Below, piece by piece: positions 33,611 to 40,734 of a stretch of 64,000 nucleotides of DNA. How positions within the stretch are numbered: the first letter of the stretch is position 1; every line of letters begins with the position of its first letter. The notes beneath the pieces were generated by a model. That model worked only from the letters and a program-made list of their open reading frames with translations, was not told the origin of the DNA and searched no databases. The stretch is from Terriglobia bacterium (GTDB lineage Bacteria; Acidobacteriota; Terriglobia; Terriglobales; Acidobacteriaceae), in contig JAIQFH010000032.1 in NCBI GenBank assembly GCA_020073385.1, positions 1-64,000 of the forward strand. Reading direction: 5' to 3'. The position numbers were made by a program, and so were the translations under genes.

Positions 33611-34161
33611 GGTTGGTTCTGTTCGCCGGGTTCCAAGCATGTTATAGATTCCTGCGGCCGAATCCCCTGACAAGGAAGCCTCTGAGGTACCGACCAGTGC
33701 CATTGTCGTGGTTCGAAGGAAGCACACATCCCACACACTATCTGGGCCGTTATGCCGGACGTTCGCGATCATTCCAGAGAAGACGACTTATTGGCCGTTA
33801 GACGACGTGAAGGAGTTGTTGACTACAATGACTCGCGAGATCAATGACTTGCCGACAACCGCCCGCGCGGAAGTGGCTTCTATCGATATGTACAATTTCT
33901 TGGGTTTATCCCTCATCTGTTTGCGACACGCGGCACATTAACGGCACACCGACACGCGCTCTGAGATCCAGTGGACAGAGTGAATGCTCGGTCGGATATG
34001 GCCTTCAGCCGCATGCGATGTTTCGGATACCACCAGGCTCAATTTGACACCTCCTTCAGCGCAGGGTAGGTTCTCATTTCGACGTAGTGCGATTCGGATC
34101 TCCCGCCATGCTTCTGGCCGGGGGCAACGCCGATGACAATAGCAGCCCCCTGAGGAGAGTA
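33611..34161. other. Intergenic region, nothing recognised
   Basis: About 550 bp. Short frames exist (for example 33708-33941) but without recognisable features or start signals. A clear GAGGAG ribosome site appears only at the right end, before 34162. Confidence 0.5.
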
Positions 34162-35301
34162 ATGGCAGATAGAGTATCGACTGGATCCGTGATACTAAAA
34201 TTCCTGCGCCGCCTCGGTGTGAGCCTGCTCTCGGTCGGATTGGCTTTCGCCCTCACCATGCTGTTGCAGCCTCTCTTTCCGTATCCGTTCTTGTTCCTTT
34301 TCTTCGGCGCGGTGATGGCAAGCGCGTGGTTCGGAGGCACGGCTGGAGGGCTCCTAGCAGTACTGCTCTCGACGATAATTGTGGATTACTTCTTTGTACC
34401 TCCCGTGCATTCGTTTTCGATTAGCACTACAGCCGAGGCGTACTTATTTGCATTCGTTGCGTGTGCGCTTGCGGCAAGCTGGATTAGCTCCGCGAAAAAG
34501 AAGAGTGAGGTTGCGCTCCAAGAAGCTCTCGATAACTTGGAAGTTCGCGTCTCCGAACGTAGTGCCGAACTCTTTAAGACACAAACCGAACTTGCCCACC
34601 TGTCACAGGTTCTCAGCATGGGCGAGTTGACGGCCTCGATCGCGCACGAGATCAATCAGCCCCTAACGGCAGTAGTCACGCACGGTCATGCATGTCTAGA
34701 ATGGCTCTCGGCGGACCCTCCCAATCTCGATAAAACCAGACAGACGATCGAAAGGATCATCCTGGACGGAACTCGCGCAGGTGCGACGATAAGCCGAGTC
34801 CGTGCTCTCTTTAAGAAAGAAGCTCCGGTCAAAGATTGGCTTGACGTCAATGAAGTCGTCCATGAGTTGACGATTTTCCTGCGAGACGAAGCGATCCGGC
34901 GCGGTATTTTGGTCCAAACTGACCTCGTGCCCGGATTGCCCAAAATCAAAGCAGACCGCGTTCAGCTGCAGCAGGTGCTATTGAACCTCATCATGAATGG
35001 CATGGACGCGATGGACGACGTGGCGAATCATCGTAAAGAACTGGTCATCAGTGCGCGAGTCGAGGACGCAAATTTGGTCGTGCGCGTCGTAGACTCCGGA
35101 AAGGGACTGGACGGGCAGACCGCAGAGAAGATCTTTACTCCATTCTTTACTACCAAACCGCATGGAATCGGACTTGGGTTGTCACTCAGCCGATCGATCG
35201 TTGAGGCTCACGAAGGTCGACTGTGGGCATCGCCGCGAGCTTCTGGTGGCACTTCATTTCAGTTTACACTTCCCATTCACCCACGAGATTCCGATGGCTG
35301 A
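34162..35301 (+). CDS. DUF4118 membrane sensor histidine kinase
   Basis: About 379 residues from an ATG at 34162 with GAGGAG upstream; an in-frame GTG at 34087 has no such site. Residues ~15-110 hold a DUF4118-type multi-helix membrane region (LGVSLLSVGLAFALTMLL, FLFLFFGAVMASAWFGG, VDYFFVPP). A coiled coil leads to HisKA with SIAHEINQPLTAV (H near 163) and HATPase with NLIMNGMDAMDD, DSGKGLDG, TTKPHGIGLGLSLSRSI. Resembles FixL/TodS-type partners of FixJ regulators. Start of the response regulator overlaps its last codons. Signal sensed is unknown; DUF4118 is shared with KdpD, but the KdpD N-terminal domain is absent. Confidence 0.9.
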   Translation: MADRVSTGSVILKFLRRLGVSLLSVGLAFALTMLLQPLFPYPFLFLFFGAVMASAWFGGTAGGLLAVLLSTIIVDYFFVPPVHSFSISTTAEAYLFAFVACALAASWISSAKKKSEVALQEALDNLEVRVSERSAELFKTQTELAHLSQVLSMGELTASIAHEINQPLTAVVTHGHACLEWLSADPPNLDKTRQTIERIILDGTRAGATISRVRALFKKEAPVKDWLDVNEVVHELTIFLRDEAIRRGILVQTDLVPGLPKIKADRVQLQQVLLNLIMNGMDAMDDVANHRKELVISARVEDANLVVRVVDSGKGLDGQTAEKIFTPFFTTKPHGIGLGLSLSRSIVEAHEGRLWASPRASGGTSFQFTLPIHPRDSDG

Positions 35302-35911
35302 AACACGTGAAACTATATTCGTCGTGGATGACGACCCTTCGGTACGCGATGCCATTAGCAACCTTCTGGAGTCGGTGGGAATGCGCGCCAAAGTATTCGC
35401 GTCGACTGAAGCATTCTGGAAGGCGCCACGACCGGACGGCCCGAGCTGCCTCGTGCTGGACGTGCGGCTTCCGGGCGCCAGCGGCCTTGAATTTCAGGAA
35501 ATGCTGATCAAGAAAAAGGTTTCCATTCCTATTATTTTCGTCACCGCACACGGAGATGTGCCTATGACGTCTCGGGCGATGAAGGCGGGCGCGATCGAAT
35601 TCCTCATGAAGCCGTTTCAAAAGGACGAACTGCTGATGGCGGTTCGCCATGGATTAGACCGTGACCGAATCCGCCGCGAACAGGAAGCCGAACTCTCCGC
35701 GTTGAAAGTTAAGATTGGTCAACTCTCAGACCGGGAACGGGAAGTTATGGATTTGGTGGTGACGGGACTCATCAATAAAGAGATCGGCGCCAAACTTGGA
35801 CTGAGTGAAGTGACAATAAAGATTTACCGCAGCCGTGTAATGCAAAAAATGGAGGCTGCGTCGCTAGCTGATTTAGTCAGGATGGCGGACAGACTCAATC
35901 CTCGTGCATAA
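35294..35911 (+). CDS. FixJ-type LuxR-family response regulator
   Basis: 205 residues from the ATG at 35294, which overlaps the kinase gene by 8 bp. Receiver domain with acidic pocket D12/D13/D14, phospho-acceptor D56 (CLVLDVRLPG) and Lys in MKPFQKD. LuxR helix-turn-helix near 140-200 (LSDREREVMDLVVTGLINKEIGAKLGLSEVTIKIYRSRVM). Cognate output for the preceding sensor kinase. Likely activates nearby targets; the GAF-ANTAR gene 95 bp downstream is a candidate by proximity. Confidence 0.93.
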   Translation: MAETRETIFVVDDDPSVRDAISNLLESVGMRAKVFASTEAFWKAPRPDGPSCLVLDVRLPGASGLEFQEMLIKKKVSIPIIFVTAHGDVPMTSRAMKAGAIEFLMKPFQKDELLMAVRHGLDRDRIRREQEAELSALKVKIGQLSDREREVMDLVVTGLINKEIGAKLGLSEVTIKIYRSRVMQKMEAASLADLVRMADRLNPRA

Positions 35912-36005
35912 CCTCTGATTGTGATCTGACGAATCTGATTTTTCCATCGATTTGTATACCAAAGGATGATTGTCGTTTGGAAAAGCACCTAATACTGTGG
36001 TCTCC

Positions 36006-36767
36006 ATGAGCGCTACCACCGCGTGGGAAGGGACTCCAAGATCATTGCTAGTCGGACCGAAGTCCACAAATCCGTTTGCCCGGCAACACGCGTTTTTGAA
36101 TCGCATTGCCACTCGAACGAGCTCGGCAGTCCCATTCGAGCAGGTACTTGCGCAGCTTGTCGATTTTGTTATCTCGGTGGTCGAGTGCGATTCGTGTTTT
36201 GTCTATGTTCTCGAAGGGGACGAACTGGTGCTCCGAGCCTCAAAAAATCCACATCCCGAGGCTGTGGATCGCCTGAAGCTCAAAGTTGGACAAGGCATTA
36301 CTGGCTGGGTTGCGCAGCATCGTCAGCCGGTCGCGGTTGCTTGCAACGCGTGTAATGATGTCCGATTCCAGTTTTTTAACGAGCTGCCAGAAGATCGGTT
36401 CGAAGCATTTCTATCGGTTCCTCTGATGAGTCGTGGCCGCGTTGTTGGCGTGCTGAACCTGCAAAATCGAGCGGCGCATGACTACAGTGAGCGAGAAAGT
36501 ACGCTCATTTCGACTGTAGGATTTCTGGTTGGCGCAGAGATCGAAATGGCTCGCCTTGAAAAGGAGAAGTCCCAGCTGGCGGACCAACTCAAGATCAGAA
36601 AAGTTGTCGAACGGGCCAAGGGGATATTGCAGCGCCAGCTGAAGATCAGCGAACCGGAAGCGTATGAGATGCTACAGCGCCAGAGCCAACAACGACGCAA
36701 GCCGATGAGGGACATCGCCGAAGCGGTCGTTTTGAGTCATGCTGTTACACACAATGAATGCGACTAG
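36006..36767 (+). CDS. GAF-ANTAR RNA-binding antiterminator regulator
   Basis: About 253 residues from the ATG at 36006; an in-frame TTG at 35970 with AAAGGA upstream would add 12 residues. GAF domain about 35-185 (ECDSCFVYVLEGDELVLRASKNP, KLKVGQGITGWVAQHRQPVAVA, RFEAFLSVPLMSRGRVVGVLNLQN). ANTAR domain about 192-248 (LKIRKVVERAKGILQRQLKISEPEAYEMLQRQSQQRRKPMRDIAEAVVL), with the alanine/aromatic-spaced three-helix pattern of the family. ANTAR proteins bind paired hexaloop hairpins in nascent RNA and prevent termination, often in nitrogen genes. Two hexaloop hairpins lie about 110 bp downstream and an amtB-containing operon follows. Confidence 0.88.
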   Translation: MSATTAWEGTPRSLLVGPKSTNPFARQHAFLNRIATRTSSAVPFEQVLAQLVDFVISVVECDSCFVYVLEGDELVLRASKNPHPEAVDRLKLKVGQGITGWVAQHRQPVAVACNACNDVRFQFFNELPEDRFEAFLSVPLMSRGRVVGVLNLQNRAAHDYSERESTLISTVGFLVGAEIEMARLEKEKSQLADQLKIRKVVERAKGILQRQLKISEPEAYEMLQRQSQQRRKPMRDIAEAVVLSHAVTHNECD

Positions 36768-36875
36768 CGGTTCGGAAGTTAAATGGGATCAATAAAAAGT
36801 TTGAATTTGACTTTGGAGTAGGCAGTAAGCAGAATCACAAATCTAACGTTGGATTAATGTATTTCTGAGTTGTTC

Positions 36876-36924
36876 CTTCTTTTCGACGCGGAAAAGAAGC
36901 GAATCTCAGGCACGATGCCGTGCC
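36876..36924 (+). promoter_or_regulatory. Two tandem stem-loops with six-nucleotide loops (possible ANTAR target)
   Basis: Stem-loop 1: CTTCTTTTC / GAAAAGAAG (36876-36899), 9-bp stem, loop GACGCG. Stem-loop 2: GGCAC / GTGCC (36909-36924), 5-bp stem, loop GATGCC. They are 9 nt apart. Known ANTAR targets are pairs of hexaloop hairpins with A at loop position 1 and G at position 4; here both loops have G at position 4 but G, not A, at position 1 (A is at position 2). The match is therefore partial. Location, between the GAF-ANTAR gene and the amt operon, is what makes it notable. The remaining 36768-37116 region holds no gene. Confidence 0.4.
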
Positions 36925-37116
36925 GAACTAAGACGAAATTGGAATTTTGGAATGAGCGCACCGGGCAGCGGTCCCTGTGACCCGTTGCTTGTCTGGGCGC
37001 GAAGTCCGCCCCCAGGGGAGTGTCACTCTGCCCACTCTTCTGGAGGCGGCATCGTTGAAGGCTAGGCTGGAATGCTCAAGCTCTACGAACTAAGGAGAGC
37101 TTGCGGGAGCAAAGCG

Positions 37117-37425
37117 ATGGATGGAAGGACAGCTTTATTCGAGTTGCTGATGGCGGGATTCTTCGCCGTTGCCTGTCTGCGCGCACACGGCCCCTTCGCA
37201 ACGGACAGCAAAGTAACTTTTGGAGAGTTCGTGCGCTTGCCAGATCGGCTGGAGAGGCTGCGTCGCTCGCGATGGCAATGGGCTTCGATGGTTGCGATCC
37301 TGCTCGTGACTCGACTGCAACAGCCCATTCCGCTGGGAATGGAAATCATGATTGCAGCACAGTTCATGCTGTTCATGGCCTTGCCGGTTCGCCACGAGGC
37401 GAAGGTCGGAGTGCGACGCAAATGA
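37117..37425 (+). CDS. Small membrane protein, unknown
   Basis: About 102 residues from the ATG at 37117 (GGGAG seven nt upstream); an ATG at 37072 lacks a ribosome site. Three hydrophobic stretches (LLMAGFFAVACLRA; WASMVAILLVTRL; MEIMIAAQFMLFMALPV). Overlaps the next gene by 4 bp (ATGA), so they are coupled. No family recognised. First gene of the proposed amt operon. Confidence 0.55.
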   Translation: MDGRTALFELLMAGFFAVACLRAHGPFATDSKVTFGEFVRLPDRLERLRRSRWQWASMVAILLVTRLQQPIPLGMEIMIAAQFMLFMALPVRHEAKVGVRRK

Positions 37426-37889
37426 GGCCGATGTGGAAAGCCGCCGATCTCGTGCGACGAGTGCATCGTAGATTGCGTTTCGGTGAGCTGTCGAGAGCGC
37501 CGCTGCGCCTGTTGCGATTTGAATTGCGCGGCCAGGAAGCGGAGTGCGAGTGGATAGCTCGTCCGCCGGATCCATGGGATGTAGATCTGCCTCCGGCGGT
37601 CGCACATAGGAACCACACGTATCAGGCTTTGCGCGACACCGTCGCAGTTCGAGAGCTGATGTTCGACGCGATATCGGAAATCACGACCGCCAAGCTTCGC
37701 GTTTATCGCGAGTCGGAGAGTTCAGTCGAGCTGATTATCACCGGTACGGTGACTCGCGAGGACAAGCCGCCTCTTCGAGTCAGTTCGATCGCTATGCAGG
37801 CCAAACTGTGCGGTCTGCACTTCACGCTTGAGGACGGAGTGCTAGGGACGCTTTCAGCCAGAGAGCGCAACCTGGGTTACGCAACTTAA
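37422..37889 (+). CDS. Hypothetical protein coupled to the small membrane protein
   Basis: About 155 residues from an ATG overlapping the previous stop. Mostly soluble and charged, with an arginine-rich N-terminus (LVRRVHRRLRFGELSRAPLRLLRF) and a beta-rich C-terminal half (SVELIITGTVTREDKPPLRVSSIAMQAKL). No family recognised. Overlapping starts give good support for translation. Confidence 0.55.
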   Translation: MRPMWKAADLVRRVHRRLRFGELSRAPLRLLRFELRGQEAECEWIARPPDPWDVDLPPAVAHRNHTYQALRDTVAVRELMFDAISEITTAKLRVYRESESSVELIITGTVTREDKPPLRVSSIAMQAKLCGLHFTLEDGVLGTLSARERNLGYAT

Positions 37890-37924
37890 TTCGGAGTGGA
37901 CTTCTAAGGTCAAGGAGGCAATTG

Positions 37925-38314
37925 ATGGCAGCAACTTCAGGGCAAGGTCGTTCGTTTACGACATTCCTGGTCGGGCTAACCGTAGCCTGCGCCGGAATTG
38001 CATATTTCTCCAGCGGGATGGGCAAATTCGCGCTCGTCGTTGGCGTGGTGATCTTCGGGCTGAGTCTTCTGCAATTTCTCAAACTCAAGCCGCTCGAAGG
38101 GGCACCAGCCCAGATTGCAGGCGCCGGAGGGATGAAGGCGCTCGGAGCATTTATCGCCTGCTTCGGATGGCTTCTGATACTCGGCGGACTTCACGTCGTC
38201 ACCGGAACAGGCGGCCGCATCGCGCTGGGAATCGTGGGCATCGCAGTGAGTCTGCTCGGGATCCTTTTCGTGTTGCCGGCCGCGTTTAACAAAAACGCGA
38301 TTTGGAAGGCTTAA
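37925..38314 (+). CDS. Four-helix membrane protein, unknown
   Basis: 129 residues from the ATG at 37925, preceded by AAGGAGG. Four membrane helices (FLVGLTVACAGIAYFSS; LVVGVVIFGLSLLQFL; MKALGAFIACFGWLLILGGL; GIVGIAVSLLGILFVLPAAF). Small helical bundle without recognised family, directly upstream of the ammonium transporter and on the same strand. Confidence 0.65.
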   Translation: MAATSGQGRSFTTFLVGLTVACAGIAYFSSGMGKFALVVGVVIFGLSLLQFLKLKPLEGAPAQIAGAGGMKALGAFIACFGWLLILGGLHVVTGTGGRIALGIVGIAVSLLGILFVLPAAFNKNAIWKA

Positions 38315-38363
38315 GAAAGCGCCGATAGCGGGCGAACTAAAAATGAACATGGAGCACACAATA

Positions 38364-40049
38364 ATGAGACGGATCGTACGCGCTTGTTCGTGTTTCTGCC
38401 TGGTTGCGATCGTGCTTTCGCTGTGCACAGCGGCTCTCGCACAAGCCGCGGCGCCGGCGTCGACCGCGACTCCACCACCCTCCGCTGCGACAGCCGAGCT
38501 TAAGGACGCTGCCGGCAAAGCCCCGACTGCCGATGCCCTCAAGTCTGGCGATCCCGGAGGCACTCTTACGGGCACCATCAACGACGTTCCTGCCTCGGAT
38601 TCGAAAGTGGGTGTGACACTGCCCGATGTCGCCAACCAGGTCGGCCAGAATAAGCTGGGCATCAACTTCACTTGGACGCTGGTTTGCGGATTCCTTGTCA
38701 TGTTCATGCAGGCCGGCTTTGCGATGGTGGAAGCGGGCCTGTGCCGCGTCAAGAACTCGAACCATACCTACATGATGAACTTCTTCGTGTATGGCTGCGG
38801 GCTTCTTGCCTATTGGCTGATCGGGTTTGCTATCCAGATGGGCGGTTCCGCGGGAAATGGAAATCTGGGCGGACTGAACCCACTCAACGTCGAACACCCA
38901 CTCACGCTGTTTGGCAAGACTTGGGGCATTTTTGGTGGCAGCGGAATGTTTCTGGGCGGTCACACCTATGACGTCGGCGTGATGGTGATCTTCCTGTTTC
39001 AAATGGTGTTCATGGACACCGCGCTGACGATTGTCACCGGAGCGTGCGCTGAGCGATGGAAGTTCCTAACCTTCTCGGTTTCCTCCGTGCTGATGGGAGC
39101 GTTTACTTATCCCCTGTTCGCCAATTGGGCTTGGGGCGGAGGTTGGCTTTCGCAGCTGGGAACTAATCTGGGCTTAGGCAAAGGCTACTGTGATTTCGCA
39201 GGTTCAGGAGTCGTACACGCGGTGGGCGGACTAACGGCATTGGCTGTTGCGATGATTGTCGGCCCGCGGATTGGGAAGTTCAACCGCGACGGTTCGAGCA
39301 ATGTGATTCTCGGGCATGACATCTCGGCAGTGCTGATTGGGTGCTTCATTCTGGCGTTCGGTTGGTTCGGGTTCAACCCCGGTAGCACACTGGGCGCATC
39401 GGCGAACGGCAATCTACGTATCGGTTCGATCGCAGTGAACACCATGCTCGCCGGATGCACGGGAACGTTCGGAGCCATCCTTTACATGTGGATCATGAAA
39501 GGAAAGCCGGATGCCTCAATGAGCGGCAACGGACTGCTCGCTGGATTGGTGGCCATCACGGCGCCCAGCGGTTTCGTCAACCCCACGAACTCGGCCATTA
39601 TCGGCCTGATCGCCGGGGTTCTGGTGTGTCTGAGCGTTGCGTTCATTGAAGGCGTCCTCAAAATCGACGACCCGGTTGGCGCAATCTCCGTTCACGGAGC
39701 CAATGGGCTGTGGGGCGTGCTCTCGGTCGGACTGTTCGCCGACGGCACCAGCAGCTACGGAGGGAGTTGGAATGGGGTCACAGGCTCCGTGACAGGGTTG
39801 TTCTACGGCGACTCTAGTCAGCTGGCGGCGCAGCTGATCGGCATCTCAACCCTACTGGGCTTCGTCTTCACCTTCAGCTTCGCGCTCAACATGGTTCTCG
39901 AGTTCTTCCTGGGGCATCGGGTTTCGGCAGAAAGCGAAGTTGCCGGCCTCGACCTTCCTGAGATGGGGCAGCTGGGATATCCCGAGTTCCTGTTCGCCAA
40001 GGAGCCCGATATCTTCGTGACCCACCCGCGGGAGTTCGCCGTCGCGTAA
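38364..40049 (+). CDS. amtB: Amt/MEP/Rh ammonium transporter with a signal peptide
   Basis: About 561 residues from the ATG at 38364, with GGAG nine nt upstream; an ATG at 38343 has no ribosome site. N-terminal signal (VRACSCFCLVAIVLSLCTAALA) and a ~70-residue Ala/Pro/Ser-rich extracytoplasmic stretch precede the Amt domain (from about 95): INFTWTLVCGFLVMFMQAGFAMVEAGLCR. The twin pore histidines are recognisable in GSGVVHAVGG and ISVHGANGLWG. It ends with a short cytoplasmic tail. Transports ammonium. No glnK gene is adjacent; instead a TPR protein follows, so the usual GlnK gating partner may lie elsewhere. Confidence 0.93.
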   Translation: MRRIVRACSCFCLVAIVLSLCTAALAQAAAPASTATPPPSAATAELKDAAGKAPTADALKSGDPGGTLTGTINDVPASDSKVGVTLPDVANQVGQNKLGINFTWTLVCGFLVMFMQAGFAMVEAGLCRVKNSNHTYMMNFFVYGCGLLAYWLIGFAIQMGGSAGNGNLGGLNPLNVEHPLTLFGKTWGIFGGSGMFLGGHTYDVGVMVIFLFQMVFMDTALTIVTGACAERWKFLTFSVSSVLMGAFTYPLFANWAWGGGWLSQLGTNLGLGKGYCDFAGSGVVHAVGGLTALAVAMIVGPRIGKFNRDGSSNVILGHDISAVLIGCFILAFGWFGFNPGSTLGASANGNLRIGSIAVNTMLAGCTGTFGAILYMWIMKGKPDASMSGNGLLAGLVAITAPSGFVNPTNSAIIGLIAGVLVCLSVAFIEGVLKIDDPVGAISVHGANGLWGVLSVGLFADGTSSYGGSWNGVTGSVTGLFYGDSSQLAAQLIGISTLLGFVFTFSFALNMVLEFFLGHRVSAESEVAGLDLPEMGQLGYPEFLFAKEPDIFVTHPREFAVA

Positions 40050-40146
40050 ACCGCTCGGAAGAAGAACGGCAGGCGCGAATCGCAAGTCGCGCCTGCTGGA
40101 TTTTCCTCAACCAGTGACAATGGAACTCAACGGGGGATACAGCCTC

Positions 40147-40734
40147 ATGGCACAAACTACAAGCACAGACCTCGCAGTCGACGAGAGAACGAAAACCGCG
40201 GCACTGGATACACCGGTCTCATCTCTTGCGCTCGCGTCAGTCTCGCAAGAGACTCAGGGCCTTCTGCTGCGCATGTTCTCTGATCCGTACATGCTGGAGA
40301 AGGACGAACGCGCTAGCCTGGTGAAGCAGTTGCAGGATTGCGTCGAGCAATTCCCTGAAGTCTCGGAACTGCGCGTCCTGCTTGGGATGGCGTTGTGCGT
40401 AAACTTCGACGCGCAGGCCGCGATTGAAGAGCTCCGCGAGTCGGTGCGCCTGGCTCCCGATAGTTTCATCGCCCAGCTAAAGTTCGGTGAGCTCTGGATG
40501 CGTCTGCGCGTGATGGATCAGGCAGAAGAACATACGCGGCTTGCCGCTAAGTTTGCGCGGAATCTGGCACAGTCTGACATGGCTCGGCGGCAGGCTTCTT
40601 CCATCCGGACTATGAAACGCGAGGGCATCGAGCGAGGTGGATATGGCACGCCATTGCAGAAGCTGACATCTTCTCTTCGTCGTGTCTGGATGCGTCGCAG
40701 CAGTGAACCCTCGACCGCACTCGATCTCAGTTGA
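40147..40734 (+). CDS. TPR-containing protein downstream of amtB
   Basis: About 195 residues from the ATG at 40147 (GGGGGA about ten nt upstream); in-frame starts at 40120 and 40114 exist. Helical repeat region about 45-150 (PEVSELRVLLGMALCVNFDAQAAIEELRESVRLAPDS; AQLKFGELWMRLRVMDQAEEHTRLAAKFA) and a basic C-terminus. No signal peptide. Ends 3 bp before the antiporter gene. May act as a scaffold for the transporter genes around it (inference). Confidence 0.65.
   Translation: MAQTTSTDLAVDERTKTAALDTPVSSLALASVSQETQGLLLRMFSDPYMLEKDERASLVKQLQDCVEQFPEVSELRVLLGMALCVNFDAQAAIEELRESVRLAPDSFIAQLKFGELWMRLRVMDQAEEHTRLAAKFARNLAQSDMARRQASSIRTMKREGIERGGYGTPLQKLTSSLRRVWMRRSSEPSTALDLS

Follow-up and report, generated by a model that had tools for sequence, protein, structure and literature searches.

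Does the intergenic region that separates a gene for a GAF-ANTAR regulator from an ammonium transporter gene row serve as the RNA target of this very regulator? We asked this question for a locus (Table 1) in the window, the entire 64,000-nucleotide stretch of DNA from a Terriglobia bacterium that was analysed. The ANTAR domain (PF03861) of the encoded regulator scores 68.7 bits against a curated cut-off of 27.3 bits. Its GAF domain resembles those of PtsP-type proteins and of NifA; the likeness is restricted to this domain, since the scores are far below the cut-offs of those families. GAF domains of the PtsP/NifA type can sense nitrogen metabolites. The adjoining response regulator gene probably starts further inside its listed open reading frame, and homologues suggest that ATG 37117 is the true start codon of orfA. 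This has a bearing on the length of the gap, initially put at 350 bp: counted from the ANTAR stop at 36767, the figure does not fit the listed orfA start at 37072 (304 bp) and is matched by the ATG at 37117 (349 bp). The AATAAAAAGTTTGAA stretch that precedes the promoter-like element and both promoter hexamers are conserved in two relatives, the second hexamer reading CAAAAT in one of them (L197). Neither orfA nor orfB nor orfC has a match in Pfam or NCBIfam; the three genes accompany this type of amt across Terriglobia.

Table 1. Features of the GAF-ANTAR/amt locus (positions refer to the window).
Feature	Position	Strand	Basis or remark
Sensor histidine kinase, DUF4118 membrane domain + HisKA + HATPase_c	34087..35301	+	Pfam
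Response regulator, receiver + LuxR-type (GerE) DNA-binding domain	35162..35911	+	Pfam; listed ORF
GAF-ANTAR RNA-binding regulator, presumed reader of the leader	35970..36767	+	Pfam GAF_2 + ANTAR
Promoter-like element, TTGACT, 17 nt, CAGAAT	36807..36835	+	conserved AATAAAAAGTTTGAA stretch just before
Weak hairpin, loop AACGTT (A1/G4)	36840..36855	+	overlaps expected transcription start; low confidence
Hairpin H1, CTTCTTTTC-GACGCG-GAAAAGAAG, 9-bp stem, 6-nt loop	36876..36899	+	read directly
Hairpin H2, GGCAC-GATGCC-GTGCC, 5-bp stem, 6-nt loop	36909..36924	+	read directly
Candidate H3 remnant, loop TTGGAA	36934..36949	+	low confidence; absent in L197
orfA, 117 aa as listed, no family	37072..37425	+	
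orfB, 155 aa, no family	37422..37889	+	served as locus tag
orfC, 130 aa, no family	37922..38314	+	
amt, ammonium transporter	38343..40049	+	PF00909 E 2.8e-105; TIGR00836 above cut-off
206-aa protein	40114..40734	+	3' of amt in relatives too

The preliminary description had reported two hairpins with six-nucleotide loops (GACGCG and GATGCC) standing 9 nt apart in this gap, both with G at loop position 4 (G4) and A at position 2, and direct reading of the sequence bears this out. Both loops begin with G and are closed by a C:G pair. Both helices are also part of the minimum-energy structure of positions 36860-36960, the folding of which had been proposed as a check (-30.3 kcal/mol, z -2.36; 3 of 200 shuffled sequences fold as well as the real one). 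In this structure, G1 and C6 of the H2 loop are paired so that H2 is drawn with 6 bp and a tetraloop, a closure that folding programs often introduce. When the gap was shuffled 2000 times with preservation of dinucleotides, 0.65% of the shuffled gaps held at least one pair of G4 hexaloop hairpins (stem at least 5, spacing 3-25). Three overlapping pairs are present in the actual gap, since H1 and H2 have two weaker hairpins with G4 hexaloops beside them; across all 64 kb the count is six, five on the forward and one on the reverse strand. Hence, measured against shuffled gaps, the window hairpins exceed chance. The weak hairpin at the expected transcription start is not kept in L197 or in L198, another relative, and H3 of the window is degenerate.

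A comparison with the ANTAR covariance model of Rfam, likewise proposed beforehand, yielded nothing: the Rfam search returned no match at the gathering score in the window and none at E <= 5 in 36700-38400, the ANTAR model being either absent from the Rfam copy searched or non-matching. With orfB as a tag, 23 loci were found in 22 of the 399 genomes of the class. The named collection yielded 25, of which 16 are shared with the class set and nine are new. In the gaps 3' of the ANTAR genes, H2 recurs as GGACAC-GACGCC-GTGTCC, with H1 preceding it and a third hairpin, H3, coming after it. Covariance model R1 was built from 15 sequences, ten of which, the window included, had been picked for their upstream ANTAR gene, while the other five had been spotted by eye in stretches without an ANTAR gene. 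It gave 25 matches at E <= 1.2e-4 in the 399 genomes, ten of them new, and lists the window site at E 4.3e-6, a value that is to be read with the window being part of the model. The second model, R2, comprises 26 sequences and excludes the window; with it, the window site ranks first in its 8.2-Mb genome, albeit weakly (25.9 bits, E 0.026), and reaches E 2.1e-4 when the search is restricted to the window. A search of the class with R2 under stricter filters at E <= 0.02 just missed the site. With R2, the reverse strand at H1 reaches 23.1 bits, nearly as much as the forward site, which is what a near-symmetric hairpin would lead one to expect. About 30 further instances of the leader were found in Terriglobia. 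Beyond the class, 12 genomes out of 396 gave matches at E <= 0.1 when the phylum was searched, the strongest outside match having 28.6 bits. We took these as chance matches because the stretches checked, other than the window, were without an ANTAR homologue.

Two relatives bear directly on the arrangement in the window. L197 is a full orthologous locus with the same gene order, an ANTAR protein 77% and an Amt protein 90% identical to those of the window, and two hairpins 9 nt apart, H1 and H2 both having the loop GATGCT. L198 resembles it, with hairpins 9-10 nt apart, so that both place and spacing are conserved; the hairpins of L197 and L198 are independent of both R1 and R2. Covariation of paired bases scored 0.307 in 15 sequences against 0.172 after shuffling, with none of 500 shuffles as high and eight pairs changed on both sides, and 0.248 against 0.163 in the 26 sequences without the window (again 0 of 500). 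It resides mostly in H1, H2 being nearly invariant, and the three window-type sequences alone contain one double change, which is not significant with so few sequences. The alignment across relatives that had been called for thus speaks for the hairpins, in that they are conserved, their stems covary, and L197 and L198 keep their place and spacing. Weak R1 matches (L165, L166, L170) had been removed before alignment A4, L163b, L168 and L169 were retained despite poor alignment, and H1 of L213a and L213b was unreadable and is excluded from the counts. In the relatives, H1 and H2 are separated by 21-46 nt, and H2 and H3 by 18-19 nt in 24 of 26 sequences; in sequences of the window type, the first two hairpins have moved close together and H3 is degenerate or lost. 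Both types may represent two ways to retain a close pair of hexaloops.

Across the aligned leaders, positions 1-3 of the loops vary while G4 holds, being present in 31 of 31 H2, 28 of 29 H1 and 20 of 26 H3 loops. The closing pair is C:G in all 26 H2 and in 25 of 26 H1 hairpins, the remaining H1 having U:G. Position 1 is occupied by G 18, A 6, C 5 and T 2 times in H2 (n=31), and by G 18, C 10 and A 1 times in H1 (n=29); the A1 rule of ANTAR targets does not hold, with A1 in 6/31 and 1/29 loops, respectively. As aligned, H1 of L163b combines G1 with A4 and is an exception both to the G4 rule and to the link between residue 172 and loop position 1 described below. From the two window loops a shifted consensus had been proposed; the departure from A1 stands, and the consensus can be refined to G, C or A at position 1, with G4 and the hexaloop kept.

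The distribution of the leader follows that of ANTAR genes. All 15 orfB-amt loci with an ANTAR gene in the stretch possess the leader, as against 3 of the 17 without one (Fisher 1.5e-6, uncorrected for kinship; 32 distinct loci, tallied by hand in stretches that vary in length and in part end at contig ends). The genomes of these three leader loci carry an ANTAR gene elsewhere, two of the loci being on short contigs, and the genomes G328, G401 and G430 have neither an ANTAR match nor a leader. Within the family with most matches, 16 of 26 lie within 500 nt 3' of a same-strand ANTAR domain (about 0.0009 expected), as do eight of the ten R1 matches at E <= 1.2e-4 that lie outside the model. Among 89 genomes of this family, every one of the 15 with a leader match, including G363 with its weak match (E 0.0098), carries an ANTAR gene, compared with 34 of 89 overall (Fisher 4.9e-8, uncorrected for kinship). 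Nine loci with the kinase/regulator pair and without an ANTAR gene lack the leader (0/9), and it is present in L058, L063 and L065, where the stretch encodes a DUF4118-ANTAR protein but has no regulator gene. The leader tracks the ANTAR gene and not the neighbouring kinase/regulator pair. In the two further loci checked (L117, L128), the leader stands before a gene of unknown function, after which comes a gene for an amino-acid permease. Nitrogen supply is common to the amt and permease targets. Tandem leaders, each before its own amt unit, are present downstream of a single ANTAR gene at L213:2667-2802 and L213:5466-5565. In three other loci checked (L163, L168, L169), the leader lies before genes with a TonB_C domain, and the stretch contains no ANTAR domain.

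On the protein side, the residues by which EutV holds G4 are R142, K149, E160 and Y164 (PMC8934654), and their equivalents are kept in the window ANTAR protein and in 19 of 19 ANTAR rows from leader loci. The EutV variant M172A, which alters the residue that plugs the loop, and the triple variant N173A/R175A/R177A lose binding, as described in the same source (PMC8934654, in the part drawn on here). Position 172 is Met in EutV, Rv1626, NasR and AmiR in our alignment, Ser in PAL and Gln in the window protein; among 55 distinct rows from Terriglobia, 40 have Arg there, 14 Gln and one Met, and all 14 Gln172 rows derive from leader loci. ANTAR proteins of leader loci have positions 172, 173 and 177 replaced and 175 kept in 18 of 19 rows. 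The contact geometry must differ from that of EutV, because N173 and R177 are replaced as well.

Residue 172 goes along with the first base of the loop. Where the ANTAR gene lies directly 5' of the leader, Gln172 is accompanied by G1 (17/17 in H1, 17/18 in H2) and Arg172 by C1 or A1 (3/3 in each), with Fisher values of 0.0009 and 0.003 that are uncorrected for kinship; the contrast has little phylogenetic depth, since the tree shows perhaps two Arg lineages. Eleven leaders have no ANTAR gene directly 5'. In H1, nine of them have C1, the doubtful L163b has G and L213b is unread; ten are without G1 in H2, and the one with G1, L213b, has a Gln172 ANTAR gene about 3 kb upstream. An Arg172 ANTAR protein was found in 7 of 7 examined genomes with non-G leaders (G109, G352, G298, G409, G173, G196, G251). 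In a tree of 28 GAF-ANTAR proteins, seven of the eight leader-linked ones group together with G251a, whose genome has a leader elsewhere, and the window protein falls just outside this group, the branch support being open. The pairing of residue 172 with loop base 1 suggests a recognition code. In a wider form that we put forward tentatively, and with rather less than even confidence, residue 172 would sit inside the loop and pick base 1 in Terriglobia (Met-A, Gln-G, Arg-C/A), giving two insulated sets per cell; some readers would be membrane-anchored (DUF4118-coiled coil-ANTAR) and act on transporter leaders, and the output may involve Rho or translation rather than intrinsic antitermination.

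DUF4118-ANTAR fusions are encoded at L117:12078-12734, L129:3000-3719, L058:3856-4560, L063:4284-4985 and L065:4637-5338, and DUF4118-GAF-ANTAR proteins at L117:10374-11612 and L118:8695-9948. Six of the 11 proteins of the DUF4118-ANTAR type examined have four hydrophobic segments, and the fusions would be candidates for membrane-anchored RNA-binding regulators. The genome of the window encodes a second GAF-ANTAR protein (G000:C90:103558-104220; L080:4538-5299), which has Arg172 and belongs to a group common to many members of the genus; a putative receiver and phosphatase-like protein, as read from its sequence, is encoded beside it on the opposite strand. No leader was found near this gene and its genus relatives, either by R1 in L080-L088 or by eye, and a C1-type model (R3) run on 40 relatives found no leader either (best matches, E 0.013-0.02). 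In L123, L124, L125 and L127, the region 3' of a second ANTAR gene contains a short reading frame with many Tyr, Phe and Trp codons and then a strong hairpin, with a T-run further downstream in L123 and L127; this element looks like a leader-peptide attenuator for aromatic amino acids.

Could the inverted repeats act at the DNA level instead, as operators bound for example by the LuxR-type response regulator whose gene adjoins? The nearly invariant H2 arms (GGACAC/GTGTCC) would suit such a role, yet the leader is missing from the kinase/regulator loci without an ANTAR gene (L071, L073-L076, L210, L215, L217, L218) and present in the three loci without a regulator in the stretch, the arms of H1 vary in sequence and stay paired nonetheless, and the repeats sit 3' of the promoter. 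Furthermore, position 3, which mirrors the invariant G4, varies (in H2: C 19, T 7, A 3, G 2; n=31); the conserved part is therefore strand-specific, and we regard an operator function as very unlikely. The notion that H1 and H2 are mere chance structures could appeal to their short stems of few bases and to the weak model score at the window. It is hardly credible in view of the rarity of G4 pairs in shuffled gaps, the conservation and covariation across genera and families, and the place and spacing retained in L197 and L198; conservation in relatives has already refuted it.

A structured 5' leader that no ANTAR protein reads, such as a riboswitch or the site of another RNA-binding protein co-inherited as a cassette, would accommodate the replacement of several EutV contact residues and the 10 of 26 leaders (about a third) that have no ANTAR gene directly upstream. 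Such leaders nevertheless occur in ANTAR-carrying genomes (15/15), loop position 1 follows ANTAR residue 172, and the hexaloop, the invariant G4 and the C:G closing pair are known ANTAR recognition features (PMC3369931, PMC7496416), which makes an unread leader unlikely. An ANTAR-read, nitrogen-linked leader, the core of the preliminary description, is the best reading of an element that is conserved, follows ANTAR genes, keeps G4 and C:G, and lies before ammonium and amino-acid transporter genes. We consider it quite probable that the amt operon has this element as its 5' leader and that the GAF-ANTAR protein encoded just upstream targets it; as judged from sequence, the window leader would represent a novel variety of ANTAR-target RNA with a link to nitrogen transport.

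The sequence evidence for the hairpins, their conservation and covariation, the conserved promoter, and the association with ANTAR and transporter genes lends itself to a working model. The promoter conserved in the gap would start the leader RNA at about 36842, and this RNA would fold into the hexaloop hairpins H1 and H2. An ANTAR dimer, controlled through its GAF domain and perhaps also by the DUF4118 kinase/regulator pair, would then bind the loops via the invariant G4 and alter expression of orfA-orfB-orfC-amt, most likely by allowing RNA polymerase or ribosomes to get past the leader when nitrogen is short; binding, the signal to which the protein responds and the direction of its effect are inferred. 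The antitermination switch envisaged earlier found no support: the leaders show no enrichment of intrinsic terminators (found in 5 of 27 against 5.3 expected), and no terminator-like site was found in 36768-37200 of the window, the region 3' of the hairpins included. Published ANTAR targets are often without an overlapping intrinsic terminator (PMC3369931, PMC8164766, in the parts drawn on here). A downstream GTGTC copy that might compete with H2 was present within 160 nt in 11 of 27 leaders against 5.5 in mononucleotide shuffles, which we found unconvincing. We favour control of transcription elongation, through a Rho-dependent or non-canonical terminator, over control of translation, because the hairpins lie about 190 nt upstream of the probable orfA start. 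According to the part of Walshe et al. (PMC8934654) drawn on here, A1 makes no specific contact and is suggested to hold the loop open, and Met172 excludes small loops. G1 is able to pair with C6 and C1 loops cannot do so; a reader devoid of this Met might accept a loop with paired G1-C6 or open it.

If our reading is correct, ANTAR-target RNAs extend to the Acidobacteriota, widespread soil bacteria, and are tied there to the uptake of ammonium and amino acids. Among the matches listed in a search of the open-licence literature, no title dealt with an ANTAR leader in Acidobacteria or in ammonium transport, and none combined DUF4118 with ANTAR. The two halves of the loop rule come apart, G4 being retained and A1 not, in keeping with the published structure, where the protein makes contact with G4 but, in the part drawn on, not with A1 (PMC8934654). 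Sequence models based on A1 would miss such RNAs. The pairing of residue 172 with loop base 1 would offer a direct and inexpensive way of testing how an ANTAR protein selects its RNAs, as well as natural orthogonal pairs.

The leader has counterparts in several known systems. It shares with the EutV-dependent eut leaders of Enterococcus faecalis a presumed ANTAR reader, six-nucleotide loops and G4, and its spacing of 9 nt in the window compares with 5-12 nt in eut (PMC3369931). It differs from eut in having G, C or A rather than A at position 1, in that no overlapping intrinsic terminator was seen, and, in the relatives, in a third hairpin and an H1-H2 linker of 21-46 nt; in its reader, a GAF or DUF4118 domain takes the place of the receiver of EutV, and Gln or Arg that of Met172. 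PAL (PAS-ANTAR-LOV, Nakamurella; PDB 6hmj) likewise has no Met at this position, Ser standing there in the alignment, but is a light sensor. NasR/nasF of Klebsiella oxytoca has in common with our leader nitrogen control, paired hexaloops, C:G closing pairs and G4; NasR responds to nitrate via its NIT domain and prefers A1, whereas the targets studied here concern the transport of ammonium and amino acids (PMC7496416). Actinobacterial ANTAR targets also have relaxed loops, with A1 and G4 each more than 50% conserved, linkers of 2-25 nt and few terminators (PMC8164766, in the part drawn on here). Compared with that set, G4 is essentially invariant in the Terriglobia leaders, A1 is rare, and the base at position 1 correlates with the protein.
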